Assembly: GCA_027451885.1 (NCBI GenBank)
Contig: DAIDHX010000157.1
Location: 1 to 53,535, forward strand
DNA: 53,535 nucleotides
Reading direction: 5' to 3'
Source of the DNA: Planctomycetales bacterium
Lineage (GTDB): Bacteria; Planctomycetota; Planctomycetia; Isosphaerales; Isosphaeraceae
This document shows positions 9,986-43,439 of this stretch, one piece after another; position 1 is the first letter of the stretch, and every line of letters begins with the position of its first letter. A program made the position numbers and the translations under genes. Under the pieces are notes generated by a model that saw only the letters and a list, made by a program, of their open reading frames with translations, did no database searches and was not told the origin of the DNA.

Positions 9986-10042
9986 TTGGATTCGCGCCCC
10001 ACCCTGGCATCCCCACGCCGTTTCAGGAATCGAGCTTCTCCC

Positions 10043-13027
10043 ATGAATTCAAATCGTGGATCGCTTGCGCGTTTATGGATATTGCCTGCTTTTATCGCGG
10101 CGTTCCTGGCCTGTGCCGGCATCCGGGCTGACGACCTGGCGGCCGAGCTGCCGCGAATCAAGCCGCTCGAGCCAGCCGCAGCGCTTGGGTCTTTCGTAAT
10201 CCAGCCGGGGTTTGAGCTCGTCCTGGCCGCGGCTGAGCCGCTCGTGGCGAGCCCGGTCGACGCCTGCTACGATGCCGACCTTCGCCTTTACGTGGTCGAG
10301 ATGAAGGGCTATCCGTTCCCGGAGCAAAAGCCTTCTGGCGGTGTTGTGCGTCTGGTCGACCGCGACGGCGACGGTCGTTTCGACGAACGCACGCAGTTCC
10401 TTGACGATCTCTCCTGGCCCACGAGCGTCACCCCTTATGACGGCGGCGTGTTCGTGATCGCCGCCCCTGACCTGATTTACGCCAAGGACAGCGACGGCGA
10501 CGGCCGGGCGGACGTGCGCAAGGTCATCTTCACGGGATTCGGCACGGGGAACGTGCAGGGGCTTGCCAATGGGCTCAAATGGGGGCCCGACGGCTGGATT
10601 CATGGCGTCGCCGGAATCAACGGCGGCACGATCACCTGCAAGGTGCATCCCGAATGGCCGGCGGTCGACGTGCGCGGGCGTGATTTCCGCTTCCGCCCCG
10701 ACCTTTCCGCTTTTGAAACATCCTCGGGCGGCGGACAGTTTGGTCAGACGTATGACGACTGGGGACGCCGATTCACATGCTCAAATAGTAATCATGCCCG
10801 GCAGGTTGTGCTGCCGCTACACCCGCTCGAGCGCAATCGCGGCCTGGTCACACCGCCGGTGACGGTCGACATCGCGGCCGAGGGGCCTGCTGGACCAGTG
10901 TTCCGAATCAGCAAGCCCGAGCCCTGGCGCGTGGTGCGCACCCGCCAGCGCGCAGCGGATCCCGTGATGTCGAAACGGCTGCCGCCGGCAGAGCTCGTCG
11001 CAACAGGATTCTTTACCTCCGCGACAGGAATCACCGTCTATCGCGGCACAGCGTTCCCCAGAGAATACCAGGGCAACATCTTCGTGGGCGACGTGGGGGG
11101 CAACCTGGTCCACCGTAAGCAATTAAGCTGGGACGGCGTCGTCGCCCGGGCCACACGGGCGGACGCCGGGCGCGAGTTCCTGGCCTCGACAGACAACTGG
11201 TTTCGGCCCGTGAACTTCACCGAGACGCCGCAAGGGACACTGCTCATTCTCGACATGTATCGCGAGACCATCGAGCACCCTGTTTCAATTCCGGAGCCGA
11301 TCAAAAAGCATCTCGATCTCAAGAGCGGCATGAATCGCGGCCGGATCTACGAGCTCGTGCCCGCGGGATGGAAGCGCAAGCAGATCGCAAGGCTCTCGTC
11401 TGCAACAACCGCTGGGCTCGTCGCCCACCTGGCGGACGGGGACGCCTGGCCGCGCGAGACCGCACGCAGATTGCTTCTTGAACGAGTTCAAGCCGAAGCG
11501 CTTGGCCTGCTCCGCGAGATGGTACGAACCAGGCCCTCCGCGCTCGCGCGGATCAACGCCATCTGGACGCTCGATGCGCTCAACAAGCTTGATCTCGATG
11601 ATCTGCGGCGAGGCATCGAGGATGTCGACGCCCGGGTGCGCGAAGCCTCGGCCCGTGTTGCGGCAAGACGTGTTGGGCGTGATTCCACGGTCGCTGCGCT
11701 CGTGGCCGGGCTGGCGAACGATGCGGAGATTCGCGTGCGAATGGAAGCGGCCTTCGCCCTCGGGGCATGGCAAGATCCGCACGCAATCCCCGCCCTCGCC
11801 AAAATCGCGGCGCACGATCCCGCGAGCCCATGGATTCGCGCAGCCGTGTTGAGCTCGGTCGCCAGGCGCGAGAATCTGCTACTCGACGCGTTTGCACAGT
11901 CTGGGTTTCTGGGTCAGTCGCACGCGCGTCCCTGGATTACGGACCTGGCGGAACTTGTGGGTTTCTGGCATGAGGTCGATCAGGTCAATGCGCTGGCCTT
12001 CGTGCTCGATCAGGCCCGACTGGAAACGGGGGAGCAGGCGAGGGCCGTACTCGCGCTCGCCAGGGGCTGGTCCCGCGCGGGGGGCGATCCGCGAGCAATT
12101 CTCAAAACCAGGGCAGGTCCGTCGGTCGAGCGGGTCTTGAACGCGGTGGAGAAATCGCTCCAGGAGCGCGGGGCGGGCCGCTCTCGAGCGGATGCGGTTG
12201 CCCTGGTGGGCCTGTTGCGCCAGGGGGACGCACGGCAGCTCCTGCTCGAGCTCATCGATCCGCAAGAACCGCCTGACGTCGAAATAGCCGCCCTCAGGGC
12301 ATTGCGCGGCTTCATGGACGCTGCGCTTGCTCGCGAGGTCGTTCCCCGGCTCAAGGCAATGAGCCCCGCAGTCAAGGGCGAGGCTGTCGAAACCCTGTTC
12401 AGCCGAAAGGGCCCCGAGCATGCGGTACTGGAGGCAGTGGAGGCAGGTACGCTCGATGCACGTGAGATTGAACCTGGGCGTTGGGCTGCTCTCGAAGCGC
12501 GTGACGCGTCGATCTCTGGCCGGGTCCGGGCGATCCGTGCTCGCCTGGGCATGAGCGATCGGGCCGCCGTCGTGACAACTTATGCCAGGGCGCTTACCCC
12601 GGACGGCGACCCCGCACGCGGCAAGACGATCTTCCTCAAGAGCTGTGCGACTTGCCACGTGGCCGAGGGGCAAGGACGCGAGGTCGGCCCGAACCTCGCC
12701 ACGGTCGCACACCGAGCACCGGGGGACCTGCTCGTGCACATCCTCGACCCCAATCGCGAGGTCGCTGCCAATGCTGTGAATTACCTGGTGGCCACGCGCG
12801 ACGGCCGGCTGGTCTCTGGCATCATCGCCAGCGAGTCAGCCTCAACCATCACCCTCAAACGCGCAGAGGCCGCGACCGACATCGTCAGCCGCGACCAGAT
12901 CGAGTCGATTACCTCGACTCGGCTCTCACTCATGCCCGAGGGGCTCGAGAAGGATCTCGACCCCCGCGCAGTCAGTGACGTCATCGCGTATCTTCGGTCG
13001 CTGGTCGGCAAACCGGCGGGCAAATAA
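10043..13027 (+). CDS. PVC-type membrane-bound dehydrogenase-like beta-propeller/HEAT/cytochrome c protein
   Basis: A 994-residue secreted protein. It has a signal peptide (hydrophobic LWILPAFIAAFLACAG) and an N-terminal six-bladed-propeller-like region (~45-430) with GFELVLAAAEPLVASPVDA, RDGDGRFDE and NGLKWGPDGWIHG. HEAT-like helical repeats fill ~450-830, and a C-terminal c-type cytochrome carries CATCH at 868-872 with GPNL after it and a likely Met ligand further on. This architecture is characteristic of Planctomycetes/Verrucomicrobia, where the propeller is often labelled a membrane-bound dehydrogenase domain. It probably oxidises an unknown sugar or alcohol in the periplasm (inference). 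The ATG at 10043 is preferred over the longer frame to 9986 because it starts the signal peptide. It converges with the S41 protease gene 26 bp away. Confidence 0.9.
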   Translation: MNSNRGSLARLWILPAFIAAFLACAGIRADDLAAELPRIKPLEPAAALGSFVIQPGFELVLAAAEPLVASPVDACYDADLRLYVVEMKGYPFPEQKPSGGVVRLVDRDGDGRFDERTQFLDDLSWPTSVTPYDGGVFVIAAPDLIYAKDSDGDGRADVRKVIFTGFGTGNVQGLANGLKWGPDGWIHGVAGINGGTITCKVHPEWPAVDVRGRDFRFRPDLSAFETSSGGGQFGQTYDDWGRRFTCSNSNHARQVVLPLHPLERNRGLVTPPVTVDIAAEGPAGPVFRISKPEPWRVVRTRQRAADPVMSKRLPPAELVATGFFTSATGITVYRGTAFPREYQGNIFVGDVGGNLVHRKQLSWDGVVARATRADAGREFLASTDNWFRPVNFTETPQGTLLILDMYRETIEHPVSIPEPIKKHLDLKSGMNRGRIYELVPAGWKRKQIARLSSATTAGLVAHLADGDAWPRETARRLLLERVQAEALGLLREMVRTRPSALARINAIWTLDALNKLDLDDLRRGIEDVDARVREASARVAARRVGRDSTVAALVAGLANDAEIRVRMEAAFALGAWQDPHAIPALAKIAAHDPASPWIRAAVLSSVARRENLLLDAFAQSGFLGQSHARPWITDLAELVGFWHEVDQVNALAFVLDQARLETGEQARAVLALARGWSRAGGDPRAILKTRAGPSVERVLNAVEKSLQERGAGRSRADAVALVGLLRQGDARQLLLELIDPQEPPDVEIAALRALRGFMDAALAREVVPRLKAMSPAVKGEAVETLFSRKGPEHAVLEAVEAGTLDAREIEPGRWAALEARDASISGRVRAIRARLGMSDRAAVVTTYARALTPDGDPARGKTIFLKSCATCHVAEGQGREVGPNLATVAHRAPGDLLVHILDPNREVAANAVNYLVATRDGRLVSGIIASESASTITLKRAEAATDIVSRDQIESITSTRLSLMPEGLEKDLDPRAVSDVIAYLRSLVGKPAGK

Positions 13028-13053: not shown

Positions 13054-15132
13054 TTACTGTTCCGCAACCTTCGCCCGCACGGGAGCGGCGGCAAGCGCCT
13101 TCGAGCCGAGCGAGAGATAGTCGGCCACGATCCGCACAACCTCGTCGTTGTAAAAGTCGGAAGCCCACACTTCGCGCTCGGTGAACTTCTTCTTTTTCTT
13201 CTCACGCTTGGCCTTTTCCTGGGCCACGCGATCGTCAGGGTCGGCAAGCACGAACTCGTTGCGGAACTTGGTCTCATTCAGTGAGATCGAATGCCGCTTC
13301 TTGCCGTCGATGAGCTTTTGGATCTGCTCGTCGAGCTTCTGAAACTTGGGATCTTTCTTACGCCTGACCTCAGAAAGCGTGTTCAGGCGCGCGACCAGAT
13401 CATCCGGAGTCCGGTTGTAGTTGTCGTGGGGCAGGGGGTCGACCTTGTCGAACTTGATCGCGTAGTCCATCTTCGCTTCGTTGAAGTCGCGATAGTCGTT
13501 GAGCGACTTGATGTGAATGTGGGGTGCGACGCCGTGGATCTGCGTGCTATCGCCGTTGGCGCGATAGAACTGCTGGATCGTGAGCTTGAGAGCGCCCCGA
13601 TTGGGCTGATTGCGGCGGTTCGCCCTCCGTGCGTGATCCGCGATCATCACGATGCTTTGCACCGTGCCTTTGCCGAAGGTACTGGAATCGCCGATGATCA
13701 ATCCGCGGCCATAATCCTTGATCACGCCTGCAAAAATCTCAGACGCGCTCGCGCTTGCCTTGTTGATCAGGACCACAAGCGGACCTTCCCACTCTGCGCC
13801 TTGATTGTCGTCCTCAAGCGGTTTCACGCCCTGGACCTGCTTCACCTGGACCACGGGGCCGGTGTCAATGAAGAGCCCGGAGAGAGTCTTGGCTTCCTCA
13901 AGCAATCCGCCGCCATTGTCCCGCAAATCGACCAGCACAACGTCGACGTTCTGCTCCTTGAATTCCCTGAGCATCTTGCGGCAATCGGCCGTGGCGCTCA
14001 CGGCATTGGGATCCCCACGCAGAATCGCGACCGTGTTGCCGTAAAAAGCTGGCAGACTGATGATCCCAATCTTGAAGGGCTTGCCGTCGTCCAGCTTGGC
14101 CTCGAGCACCTTGCTCTTGGCATGCTGCTCCTTGAGCTCGACCCGTTCTCGAGTGATCTCATAGATCCGCCGTTCCTTGGTCCCGTCCGGCTGAACGATC
14201 AGGCGGACCTTGGTCCCGCGCGGGCCGCGAATGTATCGCACCACGTCGCGGAGATCCTTTTCGACCAGGTCGATCTCCTCACCGTCTTCCTTCTGGATGC
14301 CGATGATCTTGTCTTCGGGCTGGAGCCGACCATCACGGTCGGCCGCCATGTCGGGGATCACCTCGTTGACGACGGCGTAACCATCTTCCGACCGCAGCGA
14401 CGCGCCGATGCCCTCAAGCTGAAGATGAAGCTGCTGATTAAGCATATCCTCCAGATCCTTCGGCCCCAGGTACGACGAGTGCGGGTCGAAGGTCTTGGTC
14501 AGGCTCGTGAGATAGATCTGCAAAATGTCTTCGGTGTCGATCTGGTGCGCCAGGCGATTCCGATCGCGATATCGCACCGTCCACTTATGAACGGCGTCGG
14601 CGTCCTTCAACTCTTCGACAACCTTCGAAAACAGCAGGTCAAACTTCACCTTCTTGCGCGTGCGCTCCATCGCCTCTTTCTTGTCGGCGGGAAAGTCAAG
14701 CTTTCCAGGCTCGTCCGGCATCGTCTCGTCGAGTGAAAAGTCCTGCTTCTGCCCCAGCAGATCGAGCTGGTTCTGGAACCGCTCGGTCTCACGCTCGAGG
14801 TAGCGGTTGAAAATTCGCTGAGCGAAATCGATGTTCCCCTCGCGAATCTCGTCATCCATCTTCGAGATGTCCTTGCGGAACTCCTCGATATCGCTTTTCA
14901 AGAAGCAATACTTGCCCGGATCGAGGTCCTTGATGTAGTTGTCGAACCAGCGCTTGGCCGTCTCGTCGTCGATGACAGGCCTGGCCATATGTTCGCGCTC
15001 GAGCAGATCGACGACGATGCGCGCCGTCTCCTGCACATCGTTTTGCACCGCGGGAGCCTGGGCCCCAACGATGACGGCCATCAAGGCCAGAACCGCGATC
15101 AGAACGACCGGGCGAAGTGCAAGTCGAGGCAT
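13054..15132 (-). CDS. Tail-specific (S41, Prc/CtpA-type) protease
   Basis: A 692-residue periplasmic serine protease. After a signal peptide (PVVLIAVLALMAVIVGAQA) comes the long helical N-domain (~30-240). A PDZ domain follows (LEGIGASLRSEDGYAVVNEV... AADRDGRLQPEDKIIGI), then the S41 core. The catalytic Ser is in NKASASASEIFAG and the Lys in TFGKGTVQ. The C-terminal extension resembles the long-form Prc/Tsp domain. Prc enzymes cut periplasmic proteins from their C-terminus and help tune envelope proteins and peptidoglycan hydrolases. The ATG at 15132 is chosen for AGGAA 9 nt upstream; a GTG at 15159 is possible. The gene is transcribed alone from the promoter region 15133-15423 and converges with the PVC cytochrome gene. 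Confidence 0.92.
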   Translation of the reverse strand: MPRLALRPVVLIAVLALMAVIVGAQAPAVQNDVQETARIVVDLLEREHMARPVIDDETAKRWFDNYIKDLDPGKYCFLKSDIEEFRKDISKMDDEIREGNIDFAQRIFNRYLERETERFQNQLDLLGQKQDFSLDETMPDEPGKLDFPADKKEAMERTRKKVKFDLLFSKVVEELKDADAVHKWTVRYRDRNRLAHQIDTEDILQIYLTSLTKTFDPHSSYLGPKDLEDMLNQQLHLQLEGIGASLRSEDGYAVVNEVIPDMAADRDGRLQPEDKIIGIQKEDGEEIDLVEKDLRDVVRYIRGPRGTKVRLIVQPDGTKERRIYEITRERVELKEQHAKSKVLEAKLDDGKPFKIGIISLPAFYGNTVAILRGDPNAVSATADCRKMLREFKEQNVDVVLVDLRDNGGGLLEEAKTLSGLFIDTGPVVQVKQVQGVKPLEDDNQGAEWEGPLVVLINKASASASEIFAGVIKDYGRGLIIGDSSTFGKGTVQSIVMIADHARRANRRNQPNRGALKLTIQQFYRANGDSTQIHGVAPHIHIKSLNDYRDFNEAKMDYAIKFDKVDPLPHDNYNRTPDDLVARLNTLSEVRRKKDPKFQKLDEQIQKLIDGKKRHSISLNETKFRNEFVLADPDDRVAQEKAKREKKKKKFTEREVWASDFYNDEVVRIVADYLSLGSKALAAAPVRAKVAEQ

Positions 15133-15327
15133 GGGCGAGAGTTCCTGAAAAGATCCCACCGCAAAGTCCGGTATTTCACCTAATATTAACCTTGGCTCCA
15201 GACCGGGACAAGCTCAGCACCGGTGGTGAACCCATGGTCCGACTTCAGCGTTACGCACAAACCAGGCACCTGGTTCACCTGCTCTTTCTCCCGCTCGCCT
15301 TTCGACCAGTTCGAGCGCGCGACATGA

Positions 15328-32327: not shown

Positions 32328-33344
32328 TCAATCCCTGCGATACGTGGCGGCGAAGCGCTCCCGCCGCGCAAGCTCGAGATCGTGCTCCACCATCATCTTG
32401 ATCAGGCCGCGGAAGTCGACCTCGGGCTTCCATCCCAGAGTTTTACGCGCTTTCGACGCATCGCCCAGCAAGACGTCGACTTCCGAAGGCCGCGTGTAAC
32501 GTTGGTCGAACTCCACGAATTCGTGATAGTCGAGATCCACAAGCGAAAACGCCAACTCGAGAAGCTCGCGGACGGAGTAGGTCTCGCCGGTCGCAACCAC
32601 GTAGTCGTCCGGAGTGTGATGCTGGAGCATGAGCCACATCGCCCGCACGTAATCGCCGGCGAAGCCCCAGTCACGCTTGGCGTCGAGATTACCCATCACG
32701 AGCTTCTTTTGCAGTCCCTCCTTGATCCGCGCTGCACCAAGCGTCACCTTGCGGGTCACGAAGGATTCGCCCCGCCGCGGACTCTCGTGATTGAACAACA
32801 CCCCCGAGCACGCAAACATCCCATACGCCTCGCGATAGTTGATCGTTTGCCAGTGGGCGTACAGCTTGGCGCAGGCATAGGGACTGCGTGGGTGGAATGG
32901 CGTCTCCAGACTCTGCGGAGGGGGCGCGGATCCAAACATCTCCGAGCTCGACGCCTGGTAGAATTTCACAGGCTTGGTGGAATTGAGCTGACGCACAGCC
33001 TCGAGTACACGCAGTGTTCCCAGCCCGACCACGTCTCCCGTGTACAGGGGCTGGTCGAACGAAACCCGCACGTGGCTCTGAGCTCCCAGGTTGTACACCT
33101 AGTACGGGCGGACCTTATCCATGACCATCGATAGGCTCGATGCATCCGCCAGGTCGGCATAGTGCAGAAACAGCCGGTCCTGGAGCGAACGGTCGTGCGC
33201 AAGCAGGTGGTCGATACGCTGGCGATTCAAGCTGCTCGACCTGCGCACGAGGCCGTGAACCTCATATTCCGGCTTGCCGAGTAGGAACTCAGCAAGATAC
33301 GACCCATCCTGCCCGGTGATGCCCGTGATAAGCGCTCGAATCAT
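32328..33344 (-). pseudogene. gmd: GDP-mannose 4,6-dehydratase interrupted by one in-frame TAG
   Basis: Gmd converts GDP-mannose to GDP-4-keto-6-deoxymannose, the precursor of GDP-fucose and GDP-rhamnose. The frame is otherwise intact over 338 codons. It has the NAD(P) motif GITGQDGSY (8-15), RRSSS (34-38), [12 protein letters not shown], the QASSSEMFG active-site loop and YACAK (Tyr156, Lys160 counted through the stop). Codon 82 is TAG (33101-33099). Known Gmd proteins read Pro-Asp-Glu-Val-Tyr here, but this sequence reads Pro-Tyr-stop-Val-Tyr. GAC GAG to TAC TAG needs two G-to-T changes in adjacent codons. Either the gene is freshly inactivated or the base calls are wrong. A GTG right after the stop could only give a protein without the nucleotide-binding start. 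It lies between epsI-like and GT4 genes with 47-bp gaps. Confidence 0.88.
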
Positions 33345-33391: not shown

Positions 33392-34069
33392 TTAAGGAAT
33401 ATAATATTCCGCACGCGACTCTGGGAGGATCGGCTCGAGCTCGGCCAGCAGGCCGCGGGCGAAATCAATCATCGCGTTGCCCTCGGGATCATCCTCGCCC
33501 GTCGAGAAGACCTCGATCGTAATCGAGGACCCCCTGGTGGTCCGTCCGTGGCTGCTCCGGCTTGTGATGGGCAAACGTCTCACGTAGTTTTCCAGCCGTC
33601 CTTCACCAAAGATGTAGTACCAGAAACCCACGTTTTCGACCAGATCGCCCCGCGCGTAAGCGAGCAGAGTGGCGAGCTGATCGCGGCCCGCGAGCCTGCC
33701 CAGCGTGATCACGCGGGTGCGTGATTCGATCTTCGTCCGCCCAGCCGAGGGGAGGCAGATTTCGGGCGTATGCCTTAGGTTGTCGCCTTTCCGAGAATAA
33801 TTGATCCAGAGCCGCATCTTGCGGCCGCGGAAGCGCGGGCATTCATACACCCGGCTCAGGTAGTCGGTCGCCTGGGAACGCTCGAGAATGTCGGGGTCGA
33901 CAGTTTCGTCCTGGCCTGACCAGTCGCCGATGGCGAACGGGATGGAGCTAAGCGGGCGTTTGAGCGGCGGCCTCTCGGTTTCGTTCATGCGCCCAAGCAC
34001 AAGCTGGCAGGCCAGTGCGCTTAGCAACAGCACGCACGCGATCAAGGCTCGGCGGGGAATCGTCTTCAT
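33392..34069 (-). CDS. EpsI-family exosortase-associated protein
   Basis: The protein has 225 residues. One TM segment (~8-26) is followed by a periplasmic domain with [39 protein letters not shown] and [11 protein letters not shown]. The H-x-P-E-x-C-L-P element (His100, Cys105) is the hallmark of the EpsI/DUF3485 family, which is often fused to or encoded beside exosortases and exopolysaccharide genes. It lies 49 bp after the exosortase gene. Its molecular role is not established; a role in the exosortase/polysaccharide process is the common inference. Confidence 0.9.
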
Positions 34070-34118: not shown

Positions 34119-35075
34119 TTACGCCGAGCTCACGGCGATCCGCGTGGAATCGCCGGCGGTTGCGACCCTGCGTGTTTCTGGCCTGAGCTGGTCGAGTAAG
34201 AAACAGACAACACTCAGGAGTGCGAGGCCCACGCCCATCATGAGCAGCCCCTCGAGCGTGTGGTAGGCGCCGCTGGCGTATTTCGAGCCTGAATAGTGCG
34301 TGATGTAGCCGGTCATGACGATGCGGAGGATATTGGCCGAAAGCGCGATCGGCAAGGCCGAGGACAGGATCGCCAACCGGTGCCACCAGGGCCGGCCGCC
34401 CATGTAGGCCATGGCCGTGGTCAGCGCCAGGAATCCGGTGAGCTGCCGCATGCCGCTGCATGCCTCGGCCACAAAAAGCTGAACTCCCCCTGGGAGCGTA
34501 AGCCGATTACCCTCGCACAGTACGGGCACGCCGGTTGCGTTCATGATACCTGAGGCTGCCTGACTTGCCAGAAGCTGCAACGGCGAAGCAATCCGGGTGT
34601 AAAGCGCGATCGGCAACGGGATCATGAACGCCAGAAACAGGATTGCAAACCAGTAGCGTTTCAGCGCGCCTGCCCCACCCAGAAGCGTGAACGCGCCCAT
34701 CAGCGCAACCAGGAAAGCAAGGTCGCCAAGGAAGGGAATGGGCAGCGGGATTGTGACGAGCATGAGTGCCAGTGCAACCGCGAGCAGAACCGTGCCGAGC
34801 GTCACACCGCCCCGAATGGGCGTGGGACCCTGGCGCGCTGCCTGGCGGAGAAAATACAGGCTGATCAGCGGAACCAGAAATCCATGGCTGTAGTTCTCGT
34901 CATTGCTCCAAACCTGTACGAAGTGGGCCAGATTATCGCGAAAGACGAGGGCGATGAGTGCAATGGTTGCTGCGATGGCAGCGACGGAAGTGCGTGCCTG
35001 GCGATCGCCGAGGGCGTTCTCCATCGCCGCTTCGAGCGAGTCGATCTCGCGGGTTGCAGTTAGGCTTTGCGACAC
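34119..35075 (-). CDS. Exosortase (membrane cysteine transpeptidase)
   Basis: A 318-residue integral membrane protein with about eight TM helices. The catalytic triad is complete: Cys206 in VAEACSGMRQL, Arg251 in LSANILRIV and His272 in GAYHTLEGLLMM. W-SNDENYSHGFLVP (56-69) is the usual exosortase N-terminal motif. Exosortases are proposed to cut PEP-CTERM-type tails of exported proteins and attach them to the envelope, and are regularly encoded in exopolysaccharide loci. The start is GTG with AAGAGG 7 nt upstream. It sits 18 bp after the FHA-like/TPR gene and just before the epsI-like gene. I cannot assign the exosortase subtype by eye, and no PEP-CTERM substrate is visible in the window. 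Confidence 0.93.
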   Translation of the reverse strand: MSQSLTATREIDSLEAAMENALGDRQARTSVAAIAATIALIALVFRDNLAHFVQVWSNDENYSHGFLVPLISLYFLRQAARQGPTPIRGGVTLGTVLLAVALALMLVTIPLPIPFLGDLAFLVALMGAFTLLGGAGALKRYWFAILFLAFMIPLPIALYTRIASPLQLLASQAASGIMNATGVPVLCEGNRLTLPGGVQLFVAEACSGMRQLTGFLALTTAMAYMGGRPWWHRLAILSSALPIALSANILRIVMTGYITHYSGSKYASGAYHTLEGLLMMGVGLALLSVVCFLLDQLRPETRRVATAGDSTRIAVSSA

Positions 35076-35093: not shown

Positions 35094-37670
35094 TCAATTC
35101 GATCGAAGAGTCGCGGCCTCGCGTTGATTGAGGGCCGAGCCCAGTCGCCGCGCGGCGACAGCCTTGCGTGTGATCGCATCGGCGTCCGCTGTTGCCATCG
35201 CCGATTTGAGCGCCCGGTCCCGCTCCGCGCTGTGCTCGAGCTGGAGCTCCACATCGGCAAGATTGAACCAGTACGTCCTGCGAGCCTTGCCCACGGGCTC
35301 GGCTTCGATTGCGGCTTGATAGGCGTGTTCCGCCTCAGGAAAGCGCCTCGCGAGAGCGAGCGCCTCGGCGTGCGCGGCCAGCTCGGCGGACGATGCGTTC
35401 GGGCCTGGCTTGCTCGCTGCGATGGTTTCGAGCAAACGCATCGCTTCTTCGCGGTCCTGCTCGAGCAGGAGCCGAGCCGCCGCGACCCGCGCCAGCCCCG
35501 ATTCGGGCAAGAGCTCGATCCATTCCACTGACTTCCAGGAAGTTGCCTGGATCATCTCCTCAAGAACGCGTCGAATCCGGCCTTCGCCCGGAATCAGGAA
35601 ATGCCCAACGTCCGGGTCCTGGCTGAATTCAGGGGCCTCGTCGCCGGCCCTGTGCGGCTCGGCGGCCATGGCAAGCGCGCTGCGATAAAGGGCCCGCGCC
35701 TCGTCGATCTTTCCGGCGTCAAGCAGCCTCCGGGCCGATGTGGCCAGCGCGACCGAATCCCGCGAAAGGGCCAGATCCGCCTCAGCAAGCGCGGGCTCAT
35801 GGCTCTGTGCCCGGAAGCGCGCTCGCACCAGCCGAGCGACCGGGTCGATGGGGGCGATCGCAAGCGCCTGCTCGAGCGGCTCGAGGGGGTTTGTTTCGGC
35901 TTCACGCTGATTCTGAGCGAGTGCGACCGCGTAAGTCGCCAGGTGCCGCGGCGTGGTGGCAACCCAGCTCGTTCCCGCGGGTCGAGCCGTGGGCGGCGGC
36001 GGTCCCTTGCGCGCATCAGCCGGCGCCAGCAGCCAGGCTGTGCCCACTCCCGCCGCGCTCGAATCCGCCGCCCAGACAAACGACAGGGCTCCGCCAGCGA
36101 ATCCGAGTGCGGAGACCATGAGCACCAGCGCCGGCGCTCCCAACCACAGTGGCAATCTCCAGGCATCGGGGGGCGTGGAGACCGTGGGGGAAGGCCGCCT
36201 CGCCGTGATCCTGGCCGCGGGACGACGATTCGGACTGGATCGCTCAGGTTTCGCCGCGGGACGCTCGCGTTTGGTCGATCGCTTCCGCCGGGGCGACGGA
36301 TCCGCCGCCGCCCGGGCCTTGTGTGTCGCCAGCACCTCGCGGACCGACGGCCATTCCGATCGGTCGTGACGCTCGCGAGCAGGGATTCGCTCGCGCACGC
36401 TCTGGCGGGGCGGATCCGACGTCGGATCAGCCAGGGTCGCGTCAGCATTCGGACTTTTGATAACGATTTCATCAAACGCATCGAGCACTACCGAGGGATC
36501 GATCGACGCCGGCGGCGGTGGCAACTCGGCTGCGCACTCGAGCCTGGGGGTAACGTCCTCGAGCGCACAGCCGCCAGGCTCGTGCGGCTCGGCAGCCGGA
36601 TCAGGATTTGCTGCATCTCCCATCGCCTCGACCGCCGCGGATGGAGGGCATACACTTTCCGGCGGCCAGGGCTCTTCCGACGGCGGCTCAGCCGGCAACG
36701 ACGCGACGCCTCGAACCTCGACCGGCCTGGGCTCGACCGGGGAAGGCTCTCGAGGAGAAGCTTCGATCCGAGCAGCCTCGCTCACGATCTCCTCGAGCAA
36801 TGGGGATTCCAGGATCGAATCGTGCAGCAGTGTTGGTTCCGGCACCGCGGGGTCAGGATTGCAAACCGCGGGCGCAGGCTCGACGGATGGATCAGAAGCA
36901 ACCGCCTGTTCGAGGGCAAGTCTCGGTTTCGCGCTGGCTTCTACAACCGCCGGGGCGAACGCAACGATCGGAGCCGACTTTCCGATCGGCTCGCGTGGAC
37001 AGACGGAAGGCTGATTCACGACCTCGGACACGAACCGTTCTGGCCGGCGTAGATGCGGGGCGGTCTTGACTTCGGGAGGGACGCGAGCGGGCTCGAGCTT
37101 CGATCCCGCGGTCCCGAGGCGGCGATCGGCGTCGATGGTTCGGCGCGCCTGGGGCGGTCTGGCCTTGGCGTATCGAGCAATCTTCTCGCGTTTATGAGTC
37201 CCGGGATTGAATTCTCGCCAGCGGCCAGGTTGAGCATCGGCCGGGCGTGCGGGTTTCGCAACGGGCGGCGGCGCTGAACTTGCCGCCGCGTGCTTGTCAC
37301 GCGAGACATCATTGGCCTCAAGCGCGGGGATTGCACGGCCATGCATCGCCCAGTCCGGCAGGCTCGCGCGGTCGCGCTTGAGCGTGAGCACACAGGTGCC
37401 AATGCGGAAGGGCAAATCGAAGTCGATGAGCGCCCAGCCCGTGATCGACTTACCGCCAACCTCAAGTTCGACATCCGAGCCGAGCGAAACGAGCCGCCAT
37501 GCCCCCAGCCTGCGCTCAAGGCGGCAGACCTCGGCGGTAAGATTCGGGTCCGGCAGCCGGACCTCGCAGCGCGCGGTGCCGCCAATCCGTGCCGAGAGCC
37601 ACGGAATCTCCACGACCCGGATCGGTCCCCAGGCTCGATCCTGTATATGGAGACAAGCAGGCTTACTCAT
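35094..37670 (-). CDS. FHA-like/disordered/TM/TPR protein of the exosortase locus
   Basis: The protein has 858 residues with four parts. Residues ~10-105 look like an FHA fold (SARIGGTARCEVRLPDPNL, then ELEVGGKSITGW and FRIGTCVLTL), but the Ser-x-x-His phosphopeptide signature is absent. Residues ~110-500 are Pro/Ala/Glu-rich and probably disordered. One TM helix lies at ~508-535 (LPLWLGAPALVLMVSALG). Residues ~580-850 hold TPR-like repeats such as LEQALAIAPIDPVARLVRARF and EAEHAYQAAIEAEPVGKARR. The topology would put the FHA-like part in the cytoplasm and the TPRs outside. An AAGGAGG stands 14 nt upstream of the ATG. It sits between the O-antigen-ligase-like gene (45 bp) and the exosortase (18 bp), so it may be a scaffold linking synthesis to exosortase processing. 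That role is inference. Confidence 0.8.
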   Translation of the reverse strand: MSKPACLHIQDRAWGPIRVVEIPWLSARIGGTARCEVRLPDPNLTAEVCRLERRLGAWRLVSLGSDVELEVGGKSITGWALIDFDLPFRIGTCVLTLKRDRASLPDWAMHGRAIPALEANDVSRDKHAAASSAPPPVAKPARPADAQPGRWREFNPGTHKREKIARYAKARPPQARRTIDADRRLGTAGSKLEPARVPPEVKTAPHLRRPERFVSEVVNQPSVCPREPIGKSAPIVAFAPAVVEASAKPRLALEQAVASDPSVEPAPAVCNPDPAVPEPTLLHDSILESPLLEEIVSEAARIEASPREPSPVEPRPVEVRGVASLPAEPPSEEPWPPESVCPPSAAVEAMGDAANPDPAAEPHEPGGCALEDVTPRLECAAELPPPPASIDPSVVLDAFDEIVIKSPNADATLADPTSDPPRQSVRERIPARERHDRSEWPSVREVLATHKARAAADPSPRRKRSTKRERPAAKPERSSPNRRPAARITARRPSPTVSTPPDAWRLPLWLGAPALVLMVSALGFAGGALSFVWAADSSAAGVGTAWLLAPADARKGPPPPTARPAGTSWVATTPRHLATYAVALAQNQREAETNPLEPLEQALAIAPIDPVARLVRARFRAQSHEPALAEADLALSRDSVALATSARRLLDAGKIDEARALYRSALAMAAEPHRAGDEAPEFSQDPDVGHFLIPGEGRIRRVLEEMIQATSWKSVEWIELLPESGLARVAAARLLLEQDREEAMRLLETIAASKPGPNASSAELAAHAEALALARRFPEAEHAYQAAIEAEPVGKARRTYWFNLADVELQLEHSAERDRALKSAMATADADAITRKAVAARRLGSALNQREAATLRSN

Positions 37671-37715: not shown

Positions 37716-39281
37716 CTACCCACGGTCCACGAAGAGATCGACACCGCCGGCCAGAAATCGATTCCCTGCGCCCAGCAGGGCACTTGCCGAAATCGCCACG
37801 GCGGGAAGGTCCACAGTCCATTGCAAGGCCGTCCATAACGTAAATCCCAACCCCGCGCCGAGCAATCCCTGAGCAAGAGTCCAGTCGGTCGCGCCCACCT
37901 TGCGCAAGGCCCAGGGCAATCGCCACAGGCACCAGCCCGCCGCCACGGCCAGGATGATCGCCCCCGCAAGCCCTGACTCGAGCAGAAACTGCAGCAGCGT
38001 CGCCCGTGGGGCAGCGATGTCGTCCCGCGCTTTGAGATACGGATGGAGCACAGGGAAGCCTCCCAGGCCGACCCCAACGAGTGGGAAATTGCCGAGCACG
38101 GCGCGAGCCTCGGGAGCAAGCTCGCGGACTTCGGCCAACGATGCCTGCGGCACGGGCGGCGGCGATCCGGTTAACCTCGACCAGTATCCGGACGACCCCG
38201 CGCCCACCAGAATCGCCAGCGTAAGTACCGCTGTGAGCGTGGGGGCGATGAGGCGCGATCCGGGCACAAACGACGACGGCACGCCCACCACCAGCAAGAT
38301 AGTAATAAAGACCCAGCACAGGCCAGTTCCCGCGGCGAATCCGACCAGATAGCAGGTGGGCACGAGCAACGCGGTGGTAAGAACCACCAGACTGCCGCGC
38401 CTCGTCTGCCGGAGGCGGGTCGTGAGGCTTTCGCGGCTGCCACCCGGCGCGATCATGTGCAAGAGCACCGCAAGCGCGACTGGCAGCGCCAGCGATCCGA
38501 GCGCCAGGAGAGCGCCGGGACCGCCCATCATGGTGCCGAGCGCCCGCGGACGCTCAGGCGCAAGCACAATGCCAATCCCCGGCTGGTTCGACTCCGTGCT
38601 CGTCTCGGGAGTTCGCCAGATCGCCACCGTGGGTGAATCGAGCAGATCGTCGTACGTCGGCGCCCAGATCTGCCCGCCTCCCGCGTGCACGAATCCGAAC
38701 ATCCCCTCGACGCCGCAGGAGAGATTCACAATCCCAACCGCGCCGTTGAGCAAGAATGCGGCGATCACCGAGCCCATCACGAGATAGAGCCTGCGTAAGC
38801 GGTCGGTGAAATGGGCAACGCTCCAAAAGACGGCAAGCGCCGCCGCGGCCGCTCCCAGCCAGCGCAGGGTCGCGGAGCGATCAAGCGAGGCAGGCGACCG
38901 GCTATAGGCAGGCTCCGCGGCTTCGATGCGAGGGTTGTCCCGCGCGACAAGCTCGGGCACAGCACCCCGGGCGTAAATCGCGTGCGCCCGCGGCGAGATC
39001 AGCTCCGCCAACCGAGCAGGCAGGGGAACAAGTTGAAAGAGCGCAAGCGCGAGCGCGGCCAGCCAGCACGCCGCCAGCGGACTTTTGAGCACGAGCACCT
39101 GCCCCGTCAACAGGAACCGCGCCGTCTGAATTGCCGCGAGCAGGAACGCGATCACGGTCGCCGCCGGCCGGAACCACCACACCGCGCCGCCGAACGCAGC
39201 CACGCCGCCCACAACGAGCAGCGGCACGAGCACGCTCGTCGCCCGGTCTGAAGCCAGTATTGCCTGCTGTTTGATACCCAT
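37716..39281 (-). CDS. O-antigen-ligase-like membrane protein
   Basis: A 521-residue protein with about a dozen TM helices and a large extracytoplasmic loop with NFPLVGVGLGGFPVLHPYL and RATLLQFLLESGLAGAIIL. The last resembles the 'H..(Y/L)LQ.L.E.G..G' motif of the Wzy/WaaL (O-antigen ligase) superfamily. It probably transfers or polymerises lipid-linked glycan at the outer membrane face. The ATG at 39281 has AAGGGAAG before it; the frame is open to 39380. It follows the BY-kinase gene by 37 bp. The operon thus has two ligase/polymerase-type proteins; this one lies next to the exosortase module and may attach rather than polymerise (inference). Confidence 0.83.
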   Translation of the reverse strand: MGIKQQAILASDRATSVLVPLLVVGGVAAFGGAVWWFRPAATVIAFLLAAIQTARFLLTGQVLVLKSPLAACWLAALALALFQLVPLPARLAELISPRAHAIYARGAVPELVARDNPRIEAAEPAYSRSPASLDRSATLRWLGAAAAALAVFWSVAHFTDRLRRLYLVMGSVIAAFLLNGAVGIVNLSCGVEGMFGFVHAGGGQIWAPTYDDLLDSPTVAIWRTPETSTESNQPGIGIVLAPERPRALGTMMGGPGALLALGSLALPVALAVLLHMIAPGGSRESLTTRLRQTRRGSLVVLTTALLVPTCYLVGFAAGTGLCWVFITILLVVGVPSSFVPGSRLIAPTLTAVLTLAILVGAGSSGYWSRLTGSPPPVPQASLAEVRELAPEARAVLGNFPLVGVGLGGFPVLHPYLKARDDIAAPRATLLQFLLESGLAGAIILAVAAGWCLWRLPWALRKVGATDWTLAQGLLGAGLGFTLWTALQWTVDLPAVAISASALLGAGNRFLAGGVDLFVDRG

Positions 39282-39318
39282 GATGACTTCCCTTGCAAGC
39301 TGCGATCGTGGAGCGTGC

Positions 39319-41550
39319 TCAGCCCTGCGCTGCCCCCGCCGGCTCCGCCTCACGGGACTCGACCGCGGACCCGAGGGCAAGACCTCCCATCGGCTCGTAA
39401 CCGTAACTCGCCCAGTCGTCCATCGCGTCGGTCAGGCCATTGAACACCACTCCCGCGATCGATACCCGCGACATCTCGAGCATCGACTTGGCGCGGTGGA
39501 GGGTCATCAGCTCGTGCGAGCCGGATCGAACCACCACGACCGCCGCGTCGACCAGCCGGCCCAGCACGCGGCAGTCCGCCAGACCGAGCACCGCCGGCCC
39601 GTCGAGAATGACCCGGTCGTAACAGCCCGCGAGCTCGAGCAAGAGCTCCTTGAGCTCAAGTGTGCCCAGGATTTCGATCGGCACATCGCGCGGATCGCCG
39701 GCGGGCATGAAGTCGAGGTTCGCGAGATCCGTCGGACGCACCGTGCTGTTCCAGGGCAGATCACCGCGAAGCACGTCCACGAGGCCGTGCACATCCTCGA
39801 GCGGCTCGTCGTCGATGAGGGCCTCCGCCAGGCTCGGCCTGCGCAGGTCGACATCGATCAGCAGCGTGCGCTCGCCCGCGCTGGCACAGGCGGCGGCCAG
39901 GTTGAGCGAGGTTGTGCTCTTACCCTCGCCGATCTGGGCGCTTGTGACCAGCAAGGTGACGATCGGATCGCGGCGGTCACCCACGCCCAGAAGCCCCGCG
40001 CGAATGTTGCGATACGCATCGGCCTCCAGCGAATTTGGCAAGGCACGCGCCCAGAGATGCCCCCCGCGCTGGGTGAGCGCGGTCCTGCGCATCCGGGGCA
40101 CAACGCCCAGGAGCGGCAAGCCCAGCCCGTGCGTCACGTGCTCGGGCACGCGAACCGTGCGATCCACATGCTCAAGCAGGCACACCAGCCCGACCCCCGT
40201 ACCCAGGCTCAGAAAGAGCACAAGCGCGATGAACAGCGGCCGGTTCGGCTTCACAGGCGCTGTCGGCTCGGCAACTCCTTCCCGCGGAATCCGCACCGGA
40301 TCGCCCGCGAGCAGCGATTGCTCCAGAATCTCGAACTCCGTGATCCGCTCCTGCATCCGCGCCACCTGCTTCGCGCGCTCCGCTCGATCCGCGAATAACA
40401 TCTGCACCTTCTGCAGATCAGGCACCGCTTCCTGCATCTCCCCCAGGAGCTTCTCGTGCTCGTCACGCTCCGCCTCGACCTCGCGCTTGAATTCCTCAAC
40501 GATCAGATCAGTCGGCGTCGACGCCATCTCGGTTTTGACATTTCGTAATGTCTCAATCTCATCCAGCGTCTCGTCAAGCAGCTCCGCCAGCCGCCGAACC
40601 GAGCGATCGGAATTGAACTGGCGCACGTTGTGACGCGCGTCTTCGAGCAGATAACGATACCGCCGCGCTTGCGCCTCGAGCTGGGCCAACTTCTCCAGCC
40701 GCGGCGAGCCCCCCCCGTCCATGTCGAACTTGGGGAACAATTTGGCGAGCTGCAATTGATACGCCACCTCGCCCAGCCGCGACTGCTTCTGCGCGATCAT
40801 GTTCGAGCTCATCACGTACCGCTCTTCGGCCAGACTCCGCCCGGTCGCACTGATGAGCTTCGTTTTCTGAAGCGTACCCACAATCTCGTCCTCAAGCTGC
40901 TTCTGGCTATCCCGCAGCTTGACCAGATCCTGCTGGGCGTACGACTTCACGGCGGCAAGCTTGTCGCTGATCTCGTCTCGAGTGCGCTTGCGAAACTCCG
41001 CAAGCAACTGCTCGAGCAATGTCTTGGTGAGCACGGGGTCGGTCCCTTCCAGCGTCACCTGGAAGGTGGTGGACTTGCCAATCTGAAGCACCGCGAGCGA
41101 CTTGAAAAGGTCGAAGGCAGGGTTGGCCACATGGCTGACGAGGGGGGAGATCGCAGGGTCTGTGACCACCGCCTGAGCCAGCCAGGCGCTCTTGAGCCAG
41201 ACCTGGTGATTGGCGACGAACTGGCTGCCCGAACCCGTCTCACGGCCGACATCGCGGCCGACGAGCGTGGAGAGGTGCGGATCAATTTCGGGCGGGCGAA
41301 TCTCGACCTCGGCCTTGGCCATGTAGACCGCGGGCATCTTGAGCACAAGGATCGAGCCGCCGACGGCGATCGGGACGGCCACGCTCAGGACCATCCAGAT
41401 TCTGCGTCTGAGGGCCGAGATGTAGTCGCCCGTCGTCTTGGGCACAACGTGGGCGTGGTGCTGCGCGTGCGGTTCGAGCGCCAGGGCGTCGCGTCCCTGC
41501 CGGATGGGGGCGGGCGTTGTGGTTCCTCGATGAGCTGGAATGCCGTCCAT
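39319..41550 (-). CDS. Wzz-domain/BY-kinase fusion (polysaccharide chain-length tyrosine autokinase)
   Basis: A 743-residue protein. It has a Wzz-type first TM (IWMVLSVAVPIAVGGSILVL, ~45-70), a long periplasmic coiled-coil region (~140-410), a second TM (RPLFIALVLFLSLGTGVGLV, ~435-460), and a cytoplasmic kinase domain. The kinase domain has Walker A SAQIGEGKSTT, Walker A' LLIDVDLRRP and Walker B RVILDGPA. BY-kinases control chain length and export by cycling phosphorylation of a C-terminal Tyr cluster. Here the Walker B reads DGPA rather than the usual DxPP, and the tail has only two Tyr (SYGYEP) before an acidic Ala/Gly end. ATG 41550 has GGAG 7 nt before it. It lies 33 bp after the WecA-like gene. 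Confidence 0.9.
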   Translation of the reverse strand: MDGIPAHRGTTTPAPIRQGRDALALEPHAQHHAHVVPKTTGDYISALRRRIWMVLSVAVPIAVGGSILVLKMPAVYMAKAEVEIRPPEIDPHLSTLVGRDVGRETGSGSQFVANHQVWLKSAWLAQAVVTDPAISPLVSHVANPAFDLFKSLAVLQIGKSTTFQVTLEGTDPVLTKTLLEQLLAEFRKRTRDEISDKLAAVKSYAQQDLVKLRDSQKQLEDEIVGTLQKTKLISATGRSLAEERYVMSSNMIAQKQSRLGEVAYQLQLAKLFPKFDMDGGGSPRLEKLAQLEAQARRYRYLLEDARHNVRQFNSDRSVRRLAELLDETLDEIETLRNVKTEMASTPTDLIVEEFKREVEAERDEHEKLLGEMQEAVPDLQKVQMLFADRAERAKQVARMQERITEFEILEQSLLAGDPVRIPREGVAEPTAPVKPNRPLFIALVLFLSLGTGVGLVCLLEHVDRTVRVPEHVTHGLGLPLLGVVPRMRRTALTQRGGHLWARALPNSLEADAYRNIRAGLLGVGDRRDPIVTLLVTSAQIGEGKSTTSLNLAAACASAGERTLLIDVDLRRPSLAEALIDDEPLEDVHGLVDVLRGDLPWNSTVRPTDLANLDFMPAGDPRDVPIEILGTLELKELLLELAGCYDRVILDGPAVLGLADCRVLGRLVDAAVVVVRSGSHELMTLHRAKSMLEMSRVSIAGVVFNGLTDAMDDWASYGYEPMGGLALGSAVESREAEPAGAAQG

Positions 41551-41583
41551 GGTCGTCTCCACGAGCGATCGCTCGCGTCAGGT

Positions 41584-43167
41584 TCATACGTGTGTGGCCG
41601 GGGCCTCGCGATCGAGCAGGCCGGGGCCGGTTGCCGTTTCCTCGATCACTGGCGCGGGTTGACGATCGACGTCGCGCTCGACCCGCGTTGCCAGCGTTTG
41701 AACAAGCCTTTGGGCGTATCGGAACACGATGTCGGCGGCGAAGGGAGCCTGGTCGGGAATCCCCAGGAACACCGCGATCCCCCCGCTCGCGCCGCAATTT
41801 GTCCGAAAGATCACCGACGAGCCCTGGCTCACCGCGCCCCACTCGTCTTCGCGCCAGAATTCCCAGGCCGGATCGCCCGGATGGCTCGGCCCCTGAATCG
41901 AGACCTGGTCGCAGCCCAGGCGCCGGGCCGAGCTCTCCACAATCTCACGCGCAACCTCCACAGTAGCCGCGACCTCGACCCGTTGAATCGCGTCCCACGC
42001 GAGCTTGGCCGCCGCCCGTTCCTGCCGCCCTCGCGTAAGCCGATCATGCAAATCGTCTCTCAGGTTCGCGAGATCGTCACGCCGGCTCGTCACCACCAGC
42101 AGGAAGACCAGGCAGCCCGAGACACCCAGCACAGCCGTGAGATATTCATTGCGAAGCGCAACGCCCAGCATCACAGCGCCGCAGAGGAATCCCGAGAAAC
42201 AGTAAAGCAAGAGCGCGGCCCTGCGCGGGCCAAGCCCCAACCCAATCAGAATATGGTGCACGTGGCGCCTGTCCGCGGCCGAAAGCGGCAAGTTCCGCAC
42301 CCAACGCCGAAAGATCGCCATCGCCGTGTCGGAAATCGGCAACCCCATCGCCAGGATCGGAAACAGGATCGAGATCGCCGATGGCCCCTCCATCGAACCC
42401 TCGACCCCAATCGTCCCAATGAGTAATCCGATCAACATACTCCCGCTGTCACCCAGGAAAATGCACGCCGGATGCCAGTTGTAAAGCAAGAAGCCAGCCA
42501 GACTGCCGGCGAGCGCCACCGCCAGGACCGCAACCTCGAAGTTGTCGTTGTGGATCGCCACCAGAGTCAAAGTGCCACTCACCAGCAGCCCGACGCCCGA
42601 AGCCAGGCCGTCGAGTCCGTCGATCAGGTTCCAGACGTTCATGCAGCCCAGGAACCAGAACAACGTGGCCACGAGCGTGAGCGGTTCGATCACCACCGGA
42701 TGACCGAAAAGGTGGAAGTTCAAACTCGCGGCAGCCAGATTGAGATCGAGATGGAACATCTCCACGGCCTGGATTCGGATGCCGCCGGCGTAGAGCAAGA
42801 GCACCGCGAGCGCCTGCCCCAGCAGCTTGATTCGGGGCGAGAGTGAGCGGGTATCGTCCACGAATCCGACGATCAAGATCAGCGCGGCCGAGCCAAAAAG
42901 CCCAAGTCTGCGCCCGGCTGCCAGGGGATCGATCGACCCCAGCCGCCACGATTCCACAACGACCGGCAAGAGCACGCCAAGGAGCACGCCAAAAGCCAGA
43001 GCCAGCCCACCCAGCCGTGGCACCGCACCCTTGTGGATTCGCCGAAACTGGTCCGGCCGATCGATCGCGCCGACCTGATTCGCCAGCCAGGTGACGAACG
43101 GTGTCGTCAGCACGCAGCCCGTCATGGCAATCGCGAAGATCGTCAGGTATGCGTTGGTGATCAGCAT
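41584..43167 (-). CDS. WecA/TagO-like polyprenyl-phosphate sugar-1-phosphate transferase with C-terminal extension
   Basis: The protein has 527 residues. About eleven TM helices occupy the first ~370. The family motifs are all present: RIHKGAVPRLGGLA, VGFVDDTRSLSP (Asp-Asp), NVWNLIDGLDGLASG, WHPACIFLGDSGSM and DRRHVHHILIGLG. The enzyme loads the first sugar-1-phosphate, usually N-acetylglucosamine-1-P, onto undecaprenyl phosphate. An extra ~150-residue cytoplasmic tail (IQRVEVAATVEVAREIVESSARRLG onward) is not part of WecA and resembles a GAF-like sensory fold (tentative). The ATG lies in a TGATG overlap with the small ORF upstream, with GGGGAGG 9 nt before it. It is the functional start of the polysaccharide operon. 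Confidence 0.92.
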   Translation of the reverse strand: MLITNAYLTIFAIAMTGCVLTTPFVTWLANQVGAIDRPDQFRRIHKGAVPRLGGLALAFGVLLGVLLPVVVESWRLGSIDPLAAGRRLGLFGSAALILIVGFVDDTRSLSPRIKLLGQALAVLLLYAGGIRIQAVEMFHLDLNLAAASLNFHLFGHPVVIEPLTLVATLFWFLGCMNVWNLIDGLDGLASGVGLLVSGTLTLVAIHNDNFEVAVLAVALAGSLAGFLLYNWHPACIFLGDSGSMLIGLLIGTIGVEGSMEGPSAISILFPILAMGLPISDTAMAIFRRWVRNLPLSAADRRHVHHILIGLGLGPRRAALLLYCFSGFLCGAVMLGVALRNEYLTAVLGVSGCLVFLLVVTSRRDDLANLRDDLHDRLTRGRQERAAAKLAWDAIQRVEVAATVEVAREIVESSARRLGCDQVSIQGPSHPGDPAWEFWREDEWGAVSQGSSVIFRTNCGASGGIAVFLGIPDQAPFAADIVFRYAQRLVQTLATRVERDVDRQPAPVIEETATGPGLLDREAPATHV

Positions 43168-43439
43168 CACTCCCAGCCTCCCCGAGATGGTGTTTCACGA
43201 GCCGCGGCCACAACCGCGACGACGCGGAGTCTCGGCGCGTGCAGGCCGAACATGCGGCCAGGCTCCAGCACAAGCCAGTCAGTCATGGGGGAGAGGAAAC
43301 ACACGCGTTCGAGGAGAACGCGAGCGAAATTGGTCGCGAGATCGAGGCTCTGCGCGAGGTGATCCACGATGAACTCGTCTTCCGTGACTCGAGCGGGCGC
43401 GGACCGCGCCGGGACTCCATCCCGGCTAAGATCCCTCAA
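43167..43439 (-). CDS. Small hypothetical ORF at the head of the polysaccharide operon
   Basis: A 90-residue frame ending in a TGATG overlap with the WecA-like start, the kind of coupling seen between true operon genes. I recognise no family; the centre reads VTEDEFIVDHLAQSLDLATN and the end is hydrophobic (LRVVAVVAAARE). The only visible start is a TTG at 43439, three nt from the predicted transcription start, so it would be leaderless, or an internal GTG is used. An opposite-strand frame (43239-43583) is about equally open with similar third-position GC, so coding is unproven. Alternative view: this is the untranslated leader of the operon. Confidence 0.4.
   Translation of the reverse strand: MRDLSRDGVPARSAPARVTEDEFIVDHLAQSLDLATNFARVLLERVCFLSPMTDWLVLEPGRMFGLHAPRLRVVAVVAAARETPSRGGWE

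Follow-up and report, generated by a model that had tools for sequence, protein, structure and literature searches.

A membrane protein with an FHA fold, a proline-rich linker and TPR repeats encoded between polysaccharide and exosortase genes of Isosphaeraceae: a candidate bitopic scaffold

Introduction

On the minus strand of the window (the whole stretch of DNA analysed, 53,535 nucleotides), positions 35094..37670 encode an 858-aa protein in which an FHA fold, a long Pro-rich linker, one transmembrane (TM) segment and a TPR-like domain follow one another. This is an undescribed membrane protein, and we infer, with a probability of roughly one half, that its biochemical role is that of a bitopic scaffold dedicated to the Wzy/BY-kinase/exosortase machine of the Isosphaeraceae. 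Ever since the 2006 proposal of the system (PMC1569441), the tie between exosortase sorting and exopolysaccharide synthesis has been an open question, and a membrane-spanning protein that is always encoded between a polymer enzyme and the exosortase provides a ready bait for a link between synthesis and sorting. An exosortase and an FHA domain were found together in no paper of the literature covered, which leaves out most subscription journals. Newly observed here are two conserved motifs in the tether and, in roughly half of the family members, a C-terminal (K/R)-A-N tail.

Gene order and distribution

The gene, which has an ATG start and 40 distinct orthologs, is separated by 45 bp from the ligase-like gene upstream and by 18 bp from the exosortase gene downstream and belongs to a six-gene run with the order WecA-like transferase, Wzz/BY-kinase, Wzy_C-like, 858-aa protein, exosortase and EpsI, all on the minus strand. 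The WecA-like polyprenyl-phosphate sugar-phosphate transferase gene (41584..43170) matched PF00953 at 1e-37, and the Wzz-type/BY-kinase gene (39319..41562) matched TIGR01007 above its cut-off. The O-antigen ligase/Wzy-like gene (37716..39380) had no Pfam match in the window alone and was assigned by its relatives, 9 of 14 of which matched Wzy_C (best 6.6e-9). The exosortase gene (34119..35075) matched PF09721 at 1.8e-65, and its product belongs to the EpsH family, keeping the Cys, Arg and His conserved there. The EpsI/DUF3485 exosortase-associated gene (33392..34069) was recognized by a domain-model match. Since the window's genome contains at least six PEP-CTERM genes, the exosortase likely has substrates.

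Orthologs were detected with a C-terminal profile; a whole-protein query gave none, its patterns probably lying largely in the variable parts. The gene was present in 25 of 25 same-family genomes, always in single copy. With Singulisphaera acidiphila, Aquisphaera insulae and Tautonia sociabilis among its named members, this family is the Isosphaeraceae. The 73 genomes of other families in the class yielded no ortholog, only short, weak TPR-like matches (best E 4.2e-6). The exosortase adjoins the gene in 39 of 40 distinct loci, the remaining one (L083) being cut by a contig end, and the ligase-like gene stands on the other side in all 36 loci whose contigs reach that far. The position between these two genes, pointed out in the original prediction, is thus a family trait, and the search in relatives that it had proposed never found the gene away from an exosortase. 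Nine other Isosphaeraceae exosortase loci (L038-L041, L124, L128, L132, L147 and L154) were without the gene; therefore, it is tied to one exosortase and not to exosortases generally. Locus L038 is that of the second, distant exosortase of the window's genome (G000:C240:35423-36262; 34% identity). The C-terminal half of the protein is common to the 40 distinct orthologs and the N-terminal domain to most of them, and with this recurrence the FHA–linker–TM–TPR architecture is beyond chance.

The N-terminal domain

Residues 1-100 (37371..37670, minus strand) were assigned to an FHA fold without Ser-x-x-His by Pfam on 18 relatives, AF2 modelling, Foldseek/VIA structure searches and residue counts. 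The window protein itself did not reach the curated Pfam cut-off for FHA or Yop-YscD_cpl, the latter matching below threshold (E 1.7e-4, 22.2 bits vs. a cut-off of 33.2). The N-termini of the relatives matched Yop-YscD_cpl in 18 of 18 cases (best 1.1e-10) and FHA (PF00498) in 16 of 18 (best 1.5e-9). The AF2 model was all-beta with a pLDDT of 84, and its top matches among PDB structures were all FHA domains (Ki67, EmbR, GarA, FhaA, MDC1), with Z values of 15-16 for those of EmbR, Ki67, FhaA and GarA (maximum 15.8). A profile search of PDB sequences agreed on FHA. We are consequently confident in the prediction of an FHA beta-sandwich fold.

The original prediction had described this domain as degenerate, and the residue counts agree. 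The Ser and His of the Ser-x-x-His pair were jointly present in none of 33 sequences; the window protein carries T and V there. The Ser position is Ala or Pro in 30 of 33 and the residue after it, Arg in the canonical pocket, is acidic in 27 of 33, while the arginine of the GR motif is retained in 30 of 33 and lost in the window protein. Judged by these residues, the phosphothreonine pocket is gone throughout the family, and this is not a canonical phosphothreonine-binding FHA domain.

The linker, its motifs and the C-terminal tail

Residues 103-505 (36156..37364, minus strand) form a Pro-rich, probably disordered linker, as indicated by its composition and by the lengths in relatives. It is rich in Pro, Ala, Ser and Arg, with 17% Pro, 69% disorder-promoting and 21% order-promoting residues, and it measures 280-693 aa in relatives with the FHA domain. 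Two linear motifs are conserved inside this otherwise variable tether. One of them, EWPSxxDIL, stands shortly before the TM segment in 31 of 36 full-length linkers (0.0001 per shuffled linker), including that of the window protein, where it reads EWPSVREVL (residues 439-447; 36330..36356, minus strand). The other, WEARWKAAGExLRAR (motif 1), occurs in 27 of 36 linkers, typically 17-80 residues C-terminal to the FHA domain (<0.001 per shuffled linker); the linker of the window protein is one of the nine without it.

The window protein ends in RSN (35097..35105, minus strand), a form of a (K/R)-A-N-COOH tail that emerged from the ortholog C-termini. Roughly half of the orthologs carry a (K/R)-(A/S/T/G)-N ending (17 of 40 under the strict pattern, another three with T or G). 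A (K/R)-(A/P/S)-N ending occurs in none of about 177 products of neighbouring genes. Both proteins in the same slot of a sister family, described below, also have a (K/R)-A-N-type tail, with synonymous codons varying. Kept across two families despite synonymous codon change, the tail looks like a terminal recognition motif.

The transmembrane segment, the TPR domain and topology

Hydropathy and AF2 placed the TM segment at residues 514-532 (36075..36131, minus strand), within a predicted helix of residues 508-548. The TPR-like helical domain spans residues 574-857 (35100..35951, minus strand) according to Pfam, AF2 and fold search. The AF2 model of the C-terminal half (pLDDT 83) showed one long helix holding the TM segment, followed by a TPR-like array. 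TPR_2 matched 22 of 23 relatives (best 4.3e-8), and in a fold search with the C-terminal half TPR proteins led the PDB matches, helical-repeat matches being unspecific. The domain thus has a TPR/helical-repeat fold. The succession of a long Pro-rich linker (about 400 aa), one TM helix and TPRs was as originally foreseen, and structure prediction of both ends gave a confident FHA fold and a TPR-like helical array.

The N-terminus, MSKPACLHIQ, carries neither a hydrophobic nor a lipoprotein signal. Over 40 residues, net positive charge was higher before than after the TM segment in 29 of 37 informative sequences, which are related, so that the counts are not independent. This modest bias was seen at 30-60 residues; over the 20 residues nearest to the TM segment, the positive-inside rule gave no bias. 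Because the N-terminal signal is absent and positive charge prevails before the TM segment, the N-terminal half is likely cytoplasmic and the TPR domain periplasmic (N-in/C-out).

Forms without the FHA domain

In two genomes of the sister family f4 (L033 and L171), the gene order is the same and the slot between the ligase-like gene and the exosortase is filled by a shorter protein of about 550-630 aa with a TM segment, TPR repeats, a PSxxxLL motif and a RAN end. Although it lies outside the Isosphaeraceae and has no FHA domain, it resembles the window protein in slot, TM segment, TPR, tail and PSxxxLL. We infer its homology to the TPR part of the Isosphaeraceae protein from position and these features, not from an E-value.

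Within the Isosphaeraceae, the FHA domain is missing in the pair L031/L104, and the gene remains in its usual position. Since both fall inside the family in a tree of exosortase plus BY-kinase, with modest branch support, a single loss is the simplest account. Transfer of the domain to another gene was rejected, since generic FHA matches in genome G004 reached at most 41.5 bits compared with 143-150 for the orthologs. In L076, L078 and L082, the FHA part and the TM-TPR part are in different reading frames, with the break between FHA and TM, and in L026 the frame breaks inside the FHA domain. A programmed frameshift was rejected because the three breaks that were tested fall in C-rich runs at different positions; for the same reason, a sequencing error or a private mutation is more probable than a shared programmed site.

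By this comparison, the invariant core consists of the TM segment, the TPR domain and the (W/L)PSxxxIL motif, with the FHA domain and motif 1 as extras of the Isosphaeraceae. The likely primary function consequently shifts to the periplasmic side. The FHA fold in the original architecture is confidently predicted, but it is not constant: one lineage of the Isosphaeraceae and the f4 proteins lack it.

Discussion

Several known systems share parts of this design. In mycobacteria, FhaA (Rv0020c) carries an FHA domain on an unstructured linker of about 300 aa and was proposed to tether envelope-building machines (PMC11898655). Both proteins connect an FHA domain to a second domain via a long unstructured linker; however, the FHA domain of FhaA is C-terminal with working pThr binding, its N-terminal globular domain is unrelated, and it has neither TPR nor exosortase context. 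The type III secretion inner-membrane proteins YscD/SctD/PrgH also have an N-terminal degenerate FHA-like cytoplasmic domain and one TM segment, whereas the 858-aa protein adds a disordered linker of about 400 aa and a TPR domain and lies in a polysaccharide/exosortase operon. An identity as SctD/YscD was rejected, since the neighbours are glycosyltransferase, BY-kinase, Wzy_C, exosortase and EpsI genes rather than type III secretion genes, and since an all-helical TPR-like domain follows the TM segment instead of ring-building alpha/beta domains. PrsT (TIGR02917) likewise combines TPRs with a link to exosortase/EPS genes (PMC1569441), but it is a lipoprotein, whereas the 858-aa protein has an internal TM segment and an FHA fold; its identity as PrsT was rejected, as the model had no match in the window and matched 1 of 23 relatives at 3.6e-6. 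In synthase-type systems, synthesis and export are connected by TPR scaffolds in the periplasm (PMC12220298). None of FhaA, PrsT and the synthase-type TPR scaffolds has the FHA–linker–TM–TPR architecture.

As a scaffold, the protein would use its TPR domain and C-terminal tail to grip a part of the exosortase, EpsI or the Wzy/ligase-like protein that lies in the periplasm. On the cytoplasmic side, the tether would gather components such as the BY-kinase or glycosyltransferases through its two motifs and a phosphorylation-independent FHA surface, and polymer synthesis would thereby be held beside protein sorting. The TPR contact would be the essential function and the TPR end the working end, with the FHA end a dispensable addition. 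This reading is supported by the exclusive synteny (exosortase in 39 of 40 loci, ligase-like gene in 36 of 36), by the presence in all 25 family genomes, by the absence from nine other exosortase loci, by the f4 proteins that retain the slot without an FHA domain, by the lack of the domain in L031/L104 without relocation of the gene, by the two motifs kept in a variable tether, and by the precedent of FhaA (PMC11898655). However, a fixed operon order may mean co-expression only, the topology derives from a modest charge bias and an absent signal, neither the window protein nor eight further linkers contain motif 1, and the few long membrane proteins tested included no Wzy-TPR fusion. The coupler or scaffold originally proposed thus stands as the best reading insofar as it scaffolds between the polysaccharide and exosortase steps, while we do not favour the idea that it reports on the BY-kinase through phospho-recognition.

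A more ambitious version, which we regard as doubtful, would make the protein a membrane-spanning subunit by which polymer synthesis through Wzy/BY-kinase is physically coupled to the exosortase, sorted proteins being handed to the growing polymer. If true, it would be a dedicated physical link between polymer synthesis and exosortase sorting.

The same gene order is open to other readings. The periplasmic TPR domain might act as a substrate receptor presenting PEP-CTERM proteins to the exosortase, the cytoplasmic part merely anchoring or localising it, a role once suggested for PrsT, which is tied to PEP-CTERM/exosortase systems (PMC1569441). The adjacent exosortase (39 of 40 loci, the other at a contig end) and the six PEP-CTERM genes of the window's genome fit such a receptor, but we consider it unlikely: the protein is not PrsT and has no lipoprotein signal, other Isosphaeraceae exosortase loci manage without the gene, and the conserved cytoplasmic motifs would be left unexplained. 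The ligase-like gene directly upstream in 36 of 36 loci, together with the periplasmic TPR scaffolds established in synthase-dependent export (PMC12220298), could instead point to a subunit accessory to export or to the Wzy/ligase-like enzyme, with the TPR domain as a BcsC-like scaffold from inner to outer membrane. This also seems rather improbable, since BY-kinase and a Wzy-like gene mark a type of export other than the synthase-dependent one. Furthermore, a search for a Wzy-TPR fusion in a small set of long membrane proteins from other exosortase loci found none; six of these were histidine kinases and one was a Wzy_C protein without TPR.

A regulator that recognizes a phosphorylated partner through its FHA domain and alters machine activity across the membrane would agree with the FHA fold, the BY-kinase in the operon and the GR arginine in 30 of 33 sequences. 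BY-kinases make phosphotyrosine, which is not the usual FHA ligand, and FHA domains are not known to read phosphotyrosine. Since, in addition, the Ser-x-x-His pair is absent family-wide, with Ala or Pro for Ser and an acidic residue for the following Arg, and the window protein has lost even the GR arginine, a phospho-reader role appears unlikely and such a regulator highly improbable.

For the scaffold reading, the family comparison marks the parts for mutation, namely the TPR domain, PSxxxIL, WEARWKAAG, the C-terminal KAN tail and the FHA domain.

Other genes in the window

In the GDP-mannose 4,6-dehydratase gene (32328-33344, minus strand), a single in-frame stop occurs about 80 residues into the product and the remainder follows in the same frame; this is either an error of sequencing or a genuine nonsense mutation. 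About 20 kb from the gene of the 858-aa protein lies a gene for a tail-specific C-terminal processing protease (Tsp/Prc-like; 13054-15159, minus strand), and positions 9986-13027 on the plus strand hold a gene for a PVC-type heme-binding CxxCH protein (TIGR02604/TIGR02603).
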